A stretch of 64,000 bases of DNA from Maribacter arenosus (GTDB taxonomy: Bacteria > Bacteroidota > Bacteroidia > Flavobacteriales > Flavobacteriaceae), in the NCBI RefSeq assembly GCF_014610845.1, contig NZ_JABTCG010000002.1:558001-622000 (forward strand), given 5' to 3'. Both the position numbers and the translations under genes were made by a program. The notes under the pieces were generated by a model. That model saw only the letters and a list, made by a program, of their open reading frames with translations, did not search any database and was not told the DNA's origin. Below, piece by piece: positions 540 to 44,535 of the stretch; position 1 is the stretch's first letter; the number at the start of each line of letters is the position of its first letter.

Positions 540-582
540 TCCTATTTTTGATTGATAGGCGAAAACAACAGCACACAGTGAG

Positions 583-1229
583 TTTGGAGTATTAAGTAAG
601 AAGTTTGAAGTCTGACATCTGAACTCTTATCTCTGATCTCTGATCTCTGGTTTAAGGTTTCTGGTTTCTGGTTTCTGGTTTCTGGTTGATGTAAGTCAAA
701 AGTTGGAACGTTGGAACGTTGGAAAGTTGAAGGTTGGAGTTTGATGTATTTAGTACAAAGTATAGAGTATTAAGTACGTAGTTTGAAGTCTGACATCTGA
801 ACTCTTATCTCTGACCTCTGATCTCTGATTTCTGGTTTCTGGTTTCTGGTTTCTGGTTTCTGGTTGATGTAAGTCAAAAGTTGGAACGTTGGAACGTTGG
901 AAAGTTGAAGGTTGGAGTTTGGAGTTTGATGTATTTAGTACAAAGTATAGAGAATTAAGTACGTAGTTTGAAGTCTGACATCTGAAGTCTGACATCAGAC
1001 ATCTGGTTTAGGGTTTCTTGTTTCTGGTTGATGTAAGTCAAATGTCGAAAGTTGGAACGTTGGAAAGTTGGAAAGTTGAAGGTTGGAGTTTGGAGTTTGG
1101 AGTTTGGAGTTTGGAGTTTGATGTATTTAGTACAAAGTATAGGGTATTAAGTACGAAGTTTGAAGTCTGACATCTGAACTCTTATCTCTGATCTCTGAAA
1201 TCTGATTTCTGGTTTCTAGATTCTGGTCA
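583..1229. repeat. Heptad-phased higher-order tandem array
   Basis: This non-coding array has three full units starting at 604, 782 and 967 and a partial fourth at 1159. The unit lengths are 178, 185 and 192 nt, differing by exactly 7. Each unit parses without gaps into 7-nt words such as TCTGATC, TCTGGTT, TTTGGAG and TATTAAG, broken only by three consecutive 8-nt words of the form GTTGGAAC/A. The units therefore contain 25, 26 and 27 words. Neighbouring words are similar but not identical. No spacers of CRISPR type, no cas genes and no plausible protein are present. Function unknown. Confidence 0.9.
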
Positions 1230-1298
1230 CTAATCCCATTGAGATCGCTTAGTGCCTTGCGGAGACGACCTATAGAAACATTAGGATGGCAATAAGTT
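1223..1298. repeat. Long direct repeat, copy 1
   Basis: About 76 bp that recur at 1553-1628 with roughly 90% identity, 330 bp apart. The copy begins where the heptad array ends. Read on the reverse strand, both copies encode the related peptide HPNVSIGRLRKALSDL, which suggests they are pieces of a former coding sequence or of a dispersed element. I do not recognise the peptide. Confidence 0.75.
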
Positions 1299-41684: not shown

Positions 41685-42545
41685 TTAATTGTTCAATGCT
41701 TCCGCTCCACCAACGATCTCTAGGATTTCATTGGTAATCGCTGCTTGTCTTGCTTGGTTATACGTCAATTTGAGTTGATCTCTCAACTCGGTTGCATTAT
41801 CAGTTGCTTTGTGCATTGCCGTCATACGGGCACCATGCTCACTGGCAAACGAATCGCGCACTGCTTTGTACAACTGTGTTTTAAGGGATTTTGGAATCAA
41901 TTGTTCTACAATATCCGCTTTGGAAGGTTCAAAGATATAATCGGAACTTGAACCTTGGGTTTCTGTAGCTGGGACTATGGGTAAAAACTGCTCTGACATG
42001 ACTATTTGGGTCGCAGCATTCTTGAACTTGTTATATACCAATTCAATCCTGTCATAGGATCCATTCTTAAACAACTCCATCATTTCCTCGGCAATAAATG
42101 CGACATTCTCAAAAGTCAAATGATCAAAGACATCGCTATGGTTAGCCACAATTCTTCCCTTTTTGCCTAAAATATCGTTGGCTTTCTTTCCAATGGCCAT
42201 ATAATCGACCTGCTTTCCTTGGAAAGTTTCAGTGGCCAAAGTTGTACTCTGCTTAATGATATTGGTATTAAAAGCGCCACATAATCCACGGTTCGAAGTA
42301 ATTGCAACTACCAATACTTTCTTAATCGGACGATTATCGGCATAGGCACTACCGGTATCCGCATCCAAACTACCACTTAAGCTTTGTAATAGCTCAGTAA
42401 GCTTGTTCGCATAGGGTCTCATCGCGGTAATGGCGTCCTGTGCCTTCTTTAACTTTGCGGCAGATACCATTTTCATGGCACTGGTTATCTGCATCGTTGA
42501 AGAAACCGATGATATCCTGTTTCGTATTTCCTTTAAGTTGGCCAT
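41685..42545 (-). CDS. atpG: F1 ATP synthase gamma subunit
   Basis: This 286-aa central-stalk subunit couples rotor turning to catalysis. The N-terminal helix N-L-K-E-I-R-N-R-I-S-S-V and the C-terminal helix (about 215-286) form the coiled-coil shaft, including the conserved S-E-H-G-A-R-M-T-A-M and N-x-A-R-Q-A-A-I-T-N-E-I-L-E-I segments. A Rossmann-like middle domain contains NRGLCGAFN. It is the last atp gene here. It is separated from atpA by 409 nt holding a four-helix-bundle gene and heptad repeats, an unusual interruption. Confidence 0.95.
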   Translation of the reverse strand: MANLKEIRNRISSVSSTMQITSAMKMVSAAKLKKAQDAITAMRPYANKLTELLQSLSGSLDADTGSAYADNRPIKKVLVVAITSNRGLCGAFNTNIIKQSTTLATETFQGKQVDYMAIGKKANDILGKKGRIVANHSDVFDHLTFENVAFIAEEMMELFKNGSYDRIELVYNKFKNAATQIVMSEQFLPIVPATETQGSSSDYIFEPSKADIVEQLIPKSLKTQLYKAVRDSFASEHGARMTAMHKATDNATELRDQLKLTYNQARQAAITNEILEIVGGAEALNN

Positions 42546-42552
42546 TTTTTTT

Positions 42553-42594
42553 AATTATGAATTCAGAATTCTTAATTAAGAATTTTTGATTATT
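42553..42594. repeat. Heptad-phased tract, left flank of the four-helix-bundle gene
   Basis: Six in-phase heptads (AATTATG, AATTCAG, AATTCTT, AATTAAG and two more) fill the atpG side of the insertion and run into the last codons of the inserted gene. The 15-mer GAATTCAGAATTCTT at 42559-42573 is repeated exactly at 42937-42951. Confidence 0.75.
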
Positions 42595-42917
42595 GTAACT
42601 AACATTTTAATTAACTCTTCGCATTTGAACTTTAATTGACTTGGAATCTCTATTATCGTTTCTTCTATAATATCCAACCAATATGCTGTTTCATCTGCTT
42701 CCTTAAGTGCAATTCCCAATTTATTTTTGAAATCCTTAATACTTACTCCTCTCTGGGATTCCCTCACATTAGCGCCAATACTTGTTCCACATTTTATCAA
42801 TTGATGGGCAATCTCAAACTCCTTCTTTTCTCTAAGAATCCGACAAAAAAGAACTATTTCACATCCAAAATAAAAACTTTTATCTACGATTGGGTTGTTC
42901 TTTTCTTGATATCCCAT
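42576..42917 (-). CDS. Four-helix-bundle protein (S23/23S rRNA intervening-sequence family, Avd-like)
   Basis: This 113-aa all-helical protein matches the four-helix-bundle family first seen in 23S rRNA intervening sequences and structurally similar to Avd of diversity-generating retroelements. Marks are F-Y-F-G-C-E-I-V near the start, H-Q-L-I-K-C-G-T-S-I-G-A-N-V-R-E-S-Q-R-G in the middle, and KLGIALKEADETAYWLDII. The biochemical role of the family is unknown. It is placed between atpA and atpG, where no such gene belongs, and is flanked by 7-nt phased repeats with a 15-bp direct repeat. This suggests recent insertion. It is co-oriented with the operon and may be translated from it. Confidence 0.88.
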   Translation of the reverse strand: MGYQEKNNPIVDKSFYFGCEIVLFCRILREKKEFEIAHQLIKCGTSIGANVRESQRGVSIKDFKNKLGIALKEADETAYWLDIIEETIIEIPSQLKFKCEELIKMLVTIIKNS

Positions 42918-42923
42918 CCTTCT

Positions 42924-42951
42924 TATTCTGAATTCAGAATTCAGAATTCTT
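42924..42951. repeat. Heptad-phased tract, right flank of the four-helix-bundle gene
   Basis: Four in-phase heptads (TATTCTG, AATTCAG twice, AATTCTT) between the inserted gene start and the atpA stop codon at 42955-42957. It contains the second copy (42937-42951) of the 15-bp direct repeat. Confidence 0.75.
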
Positions 42952-42954
42952 CAT

Positions 42955-44535
42955 TTAATTCCTGTACTTTCCTGTCAAATCCTTGCAAACCGAGGTTAAT
43001 GTTTCGATAGCCTCATCGGTTAACTTGCCCGCTTTAAGCAAATCCAATACACCCCTATGCTTGGCATTCATAAATTGAAGGAAATCGTTTTCAAACTCCT
43101 TTACTTTTTCAACGGGGACATCACGTAATAGGTTTTTAGAACCTGCATAAATAATGGCCACCTGATCTTCGACCTTAAAAGGGTCATTTTGTGCCTGTTT
43201 AAGGATTTCAACATTACGTCGTCCTTTTTCTATCACGTTCAATGTTGCCGCATCCAAATCGGAACCGAATTTGGCAAAGGCTTCCAATTCCCTGAACTGT
43301 GCTTGGTCCAATTTTAAGGTACCAGCAACTTTCTTCATTGATTTTACCTGGGCATTTCCCCCAACCCTGGATACCGAGATACCAACGTTAATCGCAGGAC
43401 GAACCCCTTGGTTGAACAAATCTTGCTCCAAGAATATCTGTCCGTCGGTGATGGAAATTACGTTTGTTGGAATATAAGCCGATACATCACCTGCTTGGGT
43501 CTCGATAATGGGGAGTGCAGTAAGTGAACCTCCACCTTTAACCATAGATTTTAATGGGTCGGGTAAATCATTCATGTTTTTTGCAATCTTATCGTCTGCG
43601 ATTACCTTGGCAGAACGTTCCAATAATCTGGAATGTAAGTAGAATACATCCCCAGGGTATGCCTCACGTCCTGGTGGACGTCTTAATAGTAATGATATCT
43701 CACGATACGCTACTGCCTGTTTGGAAAGGTCGTCATATATAATCAAGGCCGGTCTACCAGTATCCCTGAAATATTCTCCAATAGCGGCGCCTGCAAACGG
43801 AGCATATACTTGCATGGGGGCAGGATCCGATGCGTTGGCGGCAACTATTGTTGTATATGCCAATGCGCCCCTGTCTTCCAAGACCTTCGCAATATTCGCC
43901 ACGTTAGAAGCCTTTTGGCCAATCGCAACATAGATACAATAAACAGGTTCCCCTGCATCATAAAATTCCTTTTGGTTCAGGATGGTATCGATACAAACCG
44001 TTGTTTTACCTGTTTGACGATCGCCAATGACCAGTTCCCGTTGTCCACGACCAACTGGGATCATAGCGTCAATAGCCTTTATACCTGTCTGTAAAGGTTC
44101 TGTAACTGGCTGACGGAAAATTACCCCTGGAGCTTTACGCTCTAAAGGCATTTCAAGCAATTTACCCGAAATTGGTCCTTTACCATCGATAGGAGATCCC
44201 AAGGTGTCGACTACTCTACCAACGATGCCTTCACCAACTTTGATCGATGCGATTCGTTGGGTACGTTTTACGACGGCCCCTTCAACGATTTCCTTGGAAT
44301 GGCCCAAAAGTACAACCCCTACATTATCTTCTTCCAGGTTCAAAACGATACCTTCAAGGCCACCCTCGAACTCAACTAATTCACCATATTGTACATTGGA
44401 AAGTCCATATACCCTTGCAATACCATCACCTACTTGCAAAACGGTGCCTACTTCGTCTAAAGTAGCGTTTGCTTCAAATCCTGATAGTTGCTGTTTTAAG
44501 ATTGCTGATACCTCAGCGGCTTTTACTCCTGCCAT
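42955..44535 (-). CDS. atpA: F1 ATP synthase alpha subunit
   Basis: This 526-aa non-catalytic nucleotide-binding subunit of the F1 hexamer has an N-terminal beta-barrel (about 25-95) followed by a RecA-like core with Walker A G-D-R-Q-T-G-K-T at 171-178. The core also includes [19 protein letters not shown] and the [11 protein letters not shown] segment with the arginine finger that completes the catalytic site on beta. A helical C-terminal domain ends the protein. The beta (atpD) and epsilon (atpC) genes are not in this operon and must lie elsewhere. Confidence 0.97.

Follow-up and report, generated by a model that had tools for sequence, protein, structure and literature searches.

The atp operon of Maribacter arenosus is interrupted, between atpA and atpG, by a gene of the S23 family that lies between two arms built from phased 7-nt words. 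The arms are inverted relative to each other, their word varies with the S23 clade and, as judged from the conflict between S23 and host gene trees, cassettes of this kind have been exchanged between lineages at this very junction. We hold, with moderate confidence, that the element is an S23-heptad cassette: a mobile element resembling an intervening sequence (IVS), residing in mRNA and composed of S23 and its cognate heptad stem. It was found in a window of 64,000 nt (the whole stretch of DNA analysed), whose atp operon is flavobacterial and occupies the minus strand:

41685..42545, minus strand: atpG, the operon gene downstream of S23 (open reading frame)
42546..42585, minus strand: right (3') heptad arm of phased 7-nt words, overlapping the S23 stop codon and reaching the atpG start
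42576..42917, minus strand: S23 / 23S_rRNA_IVP gene, 113 aa, an open reading frame with PF05635 and TIGR02436 matches and a profile match to 2rld
42918..42954, minus strand: left (5') heptad arm, from the atpA stop to the S23 start codon, with a lag-7 array at 42922-42955 and predicted by MFE folding of the module to pair with the right arm
42955..44535, minus strand: atpA, the operon gene upstream of S23, 526 aa, 93-95% identity in eight full-length same-genus relatives

The S23 protein scores 66.2 bits against PF05635 (23S_rRNA_IVP; curated cut-off 33.8) and 85.4 bits against TIGR02436 (curated cut-off 24), in agreement with the first-pass annotation of this DNA, which had described an S23-family gene inserted between atpA and atpG. 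A profile built from this protein together with two orthologues hits the solved structure 2rld with E 5e-28. The flanks were likewise correctly described as phased 7-nt words. These are of the type GAATTCA/T, and both flanks include GAATTCAGAATTCTT exactly, at 42559-42573 and 42937-42951; GAATTCNGAATTC occurs at only two further places in the whole genome. S23 is the sole sense open reading frame listed for the module, which thus carries no transposase of its own. A known RNA family was also considered and rejected, since the single Rfam match between 42000 and 43500 (E 0.77, far under its cut-off) is a chance one. The Avd protein of diversity-generating retroelements resembles PF05635 in sequence and structure, according to the available part of PMC10053308. 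However, a search for RVT_1 returned 0 matches in the M. arenosus genome, which distinguishes the cassette from these retroelements and rules out a reverse transcriptase partner for the window S23. A reverse transcriptase is not needed for the cassette, at least in M. arenosus. At least one RVT_1 match is present in 41 of 149 family genomes; one of them, G135, has 19, many identical in score, and these are possibly group II introns.

The 15-nt stretch common to both flanks had been presented as a direct repeat. Exact direct copies do exist: between the 100-nt flanks, exact direct matching extends to 15 nt, compared with 7.1 nt on average and never more than 12 nt over 3000 shuffles. The longest inverted match of the same flanks is 12 nt (up to 15 in shuffles). 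However, GAATTC is its own reverse complement, so that direct and inverted arrangements are indistinguishable at this locus. Inverted alignments are better than direct ones in 13 of 23 loci with a GAATTC word and in 49 of 54 orthologues carrying the non-palindromic word GAGTT. On the evidence of these alignments, the window "direct repeat" is a reflection of the palindrome GAATTC and the arms are inverted. This bears on the idea of a transposon-like unit that would be lost when the 15-bp copies recombine, leaving an empty site with a single repeat copy in relatives. Such a unit could account for the exact copies in the window, but it is extremely unlikely, given the inverted geometry at other loci and the state of the junction in the S23-less congeners G006 (L022) and G010 (L021). 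There, in place of one clean repeat copy, pieces resembling the S23 3' end and the right arm persist, which suggests that S23 was lost through internal deletion. By eye, no target-site duplication was identified when occupied and empty atpA-atpG and fadB-fadA junctions were compared, the heptads masking the ends. Three further congeners (L019, L023 and L026) carry a palindromic unit similar to GTCATTCCTGC...GCAGGAATCC at the place of the cassette; we take these palindromes to be REP-like.

The M. arenosus genome contains 11 S23 matches, read as 10 genes because two matches are pieces of one. By eye, phased 7-nt words flank each of them on both sides, the word being mostly peculiar to the gene, and all 10 genes have an inverted-arm score above the 95th percentile of sham placements. 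The first-pass annotation had proposed a search for this protein family between unrelated genes with heptad flanks. Within the bacterial family, 124 S23 loci spread over 51 distinct junctions were collected, and in 104 of them the inverted-arm score is higher than the 95th percentile of the sham placements. The first set (64 loci, 35 from the same genus and 29 from other genera of the family) comprises 36 loci taken from 69 matches, with the two-piece gene L070 left out, plus 29 new loci. The second set comprises 60 further places. Both the 29 new loci and these 60 come from the best-scoring of those listed, and intact genes are over-represented as a consequence. Inverted arms exceed the threshold in 55/64 and 49/60 loci of the two sets, direct alignments in 11/64 and 21/60. 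Over the 64 loci the inverted left-right alignment averages 15.9, against 8.5 over 256 sham placements, and the lag-7 self-match is 0.405 against 0.252. The own right arm is the best among all 64 candidate partners in 27 loci only. Outside the family (same class or phylum), inverted arms exceed the sham 95th percentile in 20 of 24 loci, some of which share one junction and are therefore not independent cases. Further host junctions, presumably leuC-leuD, hisH-hisA, sufC-sufD, ffh-folD, hemD-hemE and a fadB-fadA-like pair, were named from the protein ends.

S23 is almost always co-oriented with its neighbours, in line with the earlier view of a unit tolerated in essential operons by sharing their orientation. 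Under a longest-open-frame rule, it matches the strand of both neighbours in 64/64 loci of the first set and 55/60 of the second (119/124 in total), and in 21 of the 24 loci outside the family. Counted by junction, 46 of 51 are wholly co-oriented against an expectation of 0.34 (p 5e-17) derived from gene pairs of the window, where 39 of 58 neighbours lie on the same strand. In four of the five other family loci the upstream frame lies on the opposite strand. The fifth, L373, is the one antisense case, with S23 running counter to the longest frame on either side.

The arm word follows the protein. Among pairs of loci at different junctions, the overlap of heptad 5-mers exceeds 0.3 in 44% of the 32 pairs with 60-80% S23 identity. 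This falls to 9% of 127 pairs at 50-60%, 1% of 947 at 40-50%, 3% of 391 at 30-40% and 0% of the 237 below. The test could be scored for the 62 of 124 loci with enough heptad-supported 5-mers; some of its "different" junctions are neighbours in one operon, and L171 takes part in several of the best pairs. Such a linkage between S23 clade and word could result from co-inheritance alone.

At the genome level, the count of the heptad pattern correlates with the number of S23 matches, pieces included, across 149 genomes (rho 0.66, or 0.64 with genome size removed). Median heptad hits are 0, 4, 19.5 and 40.5 for genomes with 0, 1-2, 3-5 and at least 6 S23 matches, respectively, and four S23-free genomes contain 17-52 hits. 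The reversed pattern picks up heptads as well and therefore cannot serve as a clean control (rho 0.61 between its counts and S23). Only 2 of 83 pattern hits in M. arenosus lie within 250 nt of S23, so the S23 flanks themselves are not the source of the counts. Period-7 arrays number 19 in 464 kb of M. arenosus and one in 400 kb from G009, a congener free of S23; this contrast is not unbiased since the 464 kb include chosen S23 regions.

These counts bear on the idea that heptads are plain slippage-prone simple repeats which gather in the spacers of some genomes, where S23 merely happens to sit. It agrees with the scarcity of pattern hits near S23 and with the location of 17 of the 19 M. arenosus arrays away from it, as well as with a survey, cited in the available part of PMC4679880, in which heptanucleotides are the commonest long-repeat class in most genomes. 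Nevertheless we regard it as improbable: arms some 330 nt apart share a word, matched in inverted orientation; this word tracks the S23 clade; and, within the loci studied, sham placements yield matched inverted words less often than the S23 positions.

Other repeats were observed in the course of this survey. Long spacers of the window (580-1240 and 2544-2840) are mosaics of GGTTTCT, TCTGAAC, GGAGTTT and GTCGAAA, with no S23 match reported there, and similar heptad clusters occur at L202. L016 (G000:C19:373677-373696) is a GAATTC-type heptad array apparently in frame within a leuS-looking coding sequence. A long perfect ACTTAAC heptad array lies at G051:C4:284404-284532, and the S23-free congener G009 (L208, L209) has period-9 arrays resembling collagen-like coding repeats.

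The profile of the window protein and its two orthologues retrieved 98 loci from flavobacterial genomes and MAGs, and all of the best 80, obtained through two exact peptide patterns that favour intact genes, are located between atpA and atpG. The first-pass annotation had held that presence at this exact site throughout the family would indicate vertical inheritance. All 80 retrieved relatives do share the site, but the gene is detectable there in only 10 of 110 family genomes (the junctions that were read among 118 with an atpA match). Four of these 10 lack a long open frame, and the other 100 genomes have no S23 at this junction; at two of the 100, L239 and L315, there seem to be remnants of a decayed copy. 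The common site of the 80 loci at first spoke for simple vertical inheritance, which is ruled out by the conflict between S23 and host trees. Mantel correlations over 78 of the 80 loci are 0.08 between S23 and atpG and 0.09 between S23 and atpA, against 0.61 between atpA and atpG. At fadB-fadA, the second junction tested, S23 and host correlate at 0.30-0.34, against 0.74 (25 loci), which suggests that S23 partly follows the host there.

The arm word at atp loci is either GAATT or GAGTT. It is undecided in 3 of the 80, and left and right arms agree in all 77 decided loci. On trees of 75 loci (those 3 and 2 that were too short being left out), the word changes once along the S23 tree and 15 times along the atpA+atpG tree, at least 11 of the latter changes being forced by well-supported branches. 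The AU test (p 5e-72, on a quick LG+G4 tree) rejects the grouping of all hosts of the GAATT type in a single clade. Shuffled labels give about 19.8 changes on the host tree, compared with the actual 15; the types are therefore somewhat clustered by host and part of their history may be vertical. Kordia, Aquimarina, Aequorivita and Leeuwenhoekiella each contain both word types. In eight mixed-type pairs the modules are 61-69% identical and flank identity, in 75-nt bins, is ordinary right up to the junction, while modules of nine same-type pairs are 87-97% identical. The window module shares 80% identity with its counterpart in a MAG with more distant atp flanks and 66-68% with its counterparts in three congeners, which makes it a swap relative to these congeners. 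Conservation between genera is high over the first 75 nt of atpG, making short-tract homologous recombination a possible route. Taken as evidence from tree comparison, these data indicate that cassettes are exchanged between lineages at atpA-atpG, and the small mobile unit envisaged at first is supported to that extent.

Conflicting trees could also arise by vertical inheritance with differential loss, from an ancestor with both cassette types of which each lineage kept one. Such a history would fit the exact site shared by the best 80 of the 98 loci, and the remnants at L239 and L315 do suggest losses. It is nonetheless very unlikely. The gaps of 79 of the 80 S23-bearing junctions measure 330-520 nt, too short for two S23 genes, the type changes are forced at least 11 times, and foreign genera resemble each other more closely in S23 or in the module than in the flanks.

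The exchanged module is predicted to form a long stem. MFE folding of the complete 409-nt window module pairs the two arms around the S23 gene. Arms are paired over at least 10 bp in 70 of 79 atp modules, compared with 12 of 77 coding windows, and such pairing falls to 40 of 76 modules when the right arm is replaced by one with the other of the two words. The S23 stop codon lies within the first right-arm heptad in 70/79 modules. RNA duplex energy was discarded as evidence for the arms because sham stretches are more stable (median -28.8, compared with -25.5 for own and -18.2 for swapped arms).

Folding is also frequent where S23 is absent. Of the S23-less atpA-atpG gaps of at least 30 nt, 64 of 86 fold with z < -2 through differing sequences (heptads, REP-like palindromes or short stems), compared with 3 of 17 for the atpH-atpA gap used as internal control; L327, with a 779-nt gap, was outside the folding set. 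Period 7 is observed in 27 of 85 S23-less gaps, with none at six control lags. This frequency of hairpins is the main support for a host regulatory element, in which the junction would need an mRNA hairpin, for example to set atpA versus atpG expression. Any hairpin would then suffice, and S23 would be an autoregulator in its loop. Purifying selection on S23 would be in keeping with such a role: the five closest pairs give dN/dS values between 0 and 0.15, and weight is placed on these because pairs with L080 or L118 look like codon misalignments (the median over 77 pairs is 0.17, and 0.08 for atpG).

However, S23 occupies atpA-atpG in few genomes (10/110), in four of them without a long open frame, and hairpins are not general at its other junctions. 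The 29 fadB-fadA junctions (loci from 30 of 58 matching genomes, L422 being left out) include 13 of 3-13 nt, too small for a hairpin, 9 with a 429-604-nt insert and 7 with a 58-135-nt insert. Among the 9 long inserts, 7 pass a crude S23 motif test and 2 just resemble S23. The notion that a hairpin always precedes S23, suggested by atpA-atpG, is thus not general. A regulatory role alone would moreover leave cassette exchange and the presence of S23 at 51 junctions unexplained, and we consider it unlikely.

In the mobile IVS-like cassette that we favour, the S23 gene and the two inverted arms of phased 7-nt words that enclose it fill the space from the stop of one operon gene to the start of the next. 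Arms and gene are inherited together, and the whole is transferred horizontally to the same junction in other lineages. In the polycistronic mRNA the arms could pair, bringing the S23 reading frame into the loop of a long hairpin; this is the layout of rRNA IVS, which is why the cassette is best viewed as an IVS-like element in mRNA. An S23 oligomer may bind its own heptad hairpin, as RNA or single-stranded DNA, and this binding may help the cassette or the heptad arrays to spread, while RNase III-like cutting of the stem could render the insert harmless. Since the module encodes neither a transposase nor a reverse transcriptase, entry may occur via short flanking or heptad homology. A more general proposal, which we put forward tentatively and think rather doubtful, is that S23 proteins are sequence-specific heptad binders with one word per clade. 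S23 and its arms would then form transposase-free cassettes that home to intercistronic junctions and seed the heptad arrays of Bacteroidota, rRNA IVS being a special case.

The cassette shares several features with the rRNA IVS carrying S23p described for helix 45 of the Coxiella 23S rRNA, at least in the available part of PMC4990558. These include an S23 reading frame in a host transcript, complementary stem-forming ends (also found in the window module), conserved sites, patchy distribution, horizontal acquisition and decaying reading frames. Unlike rRNA IVS, which lie within an rRNA gene, the window cassette is located between the protein genes atpA and atpG; its arms are phased 7-nt words varying by S23 clade, and many paralogues occur per genome. 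REP/MITE-type palindromes are also hairpin-forming intergenic units, as are the cassette arms, but they have no gene inside and a fixed palindrome instead of phased 7-mers.

TAACTGA heptamers in Beggiatoaceae, Cyanobacteria and some Bacteroidetes are reported to lie mostly near start codons, some of them within operons (MacGregor 2015, PMC4679880, in part). Like them, the cassette arms are 7-nt phased intergenic arrays, as seen from the lag-7 excess. However, in the sections available the TAACTGA repeats consist of one fixed word in direct orientation, whereas the S23 arms are inverted and their words change with locus and clade. These sections propose a repeat-binding protein as the possible mobile element behind the heptamers, and the text of that paper contains neither the term S23 nor the term four helix. 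In Flavobacterium columnare, a four helix bundle gene between the guanylate kinase and nicotinate-nucleotide adenylyltransferase genes was filed among phage elements, the accessible portion of that report making no comment on repeats beside it (PMC5524665). Among the matches listed in our search of open-licence papers, none joins S23/IVP genes with heptad arms.

To our knowledge, no bacterial factor has been proven to generate or exploit 7-nt repeats. The present data quantitatively tie a class of unexplained 7-nt repeats to the S23 protein family. Its members are still termed functionally uncharacterised in the parts available of PMC4990558 and PMC11270868. That gene and repeat travel together raises a direct question, namely whether S23 binds its own word, and the essential operons of a large marine bacterial family appear as places of repeated small-cassette exchange. 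Some S23 sequences may not be intergenic: at L430 and L433 the S23 domain is apparently in frame within a longer host open reading frame.
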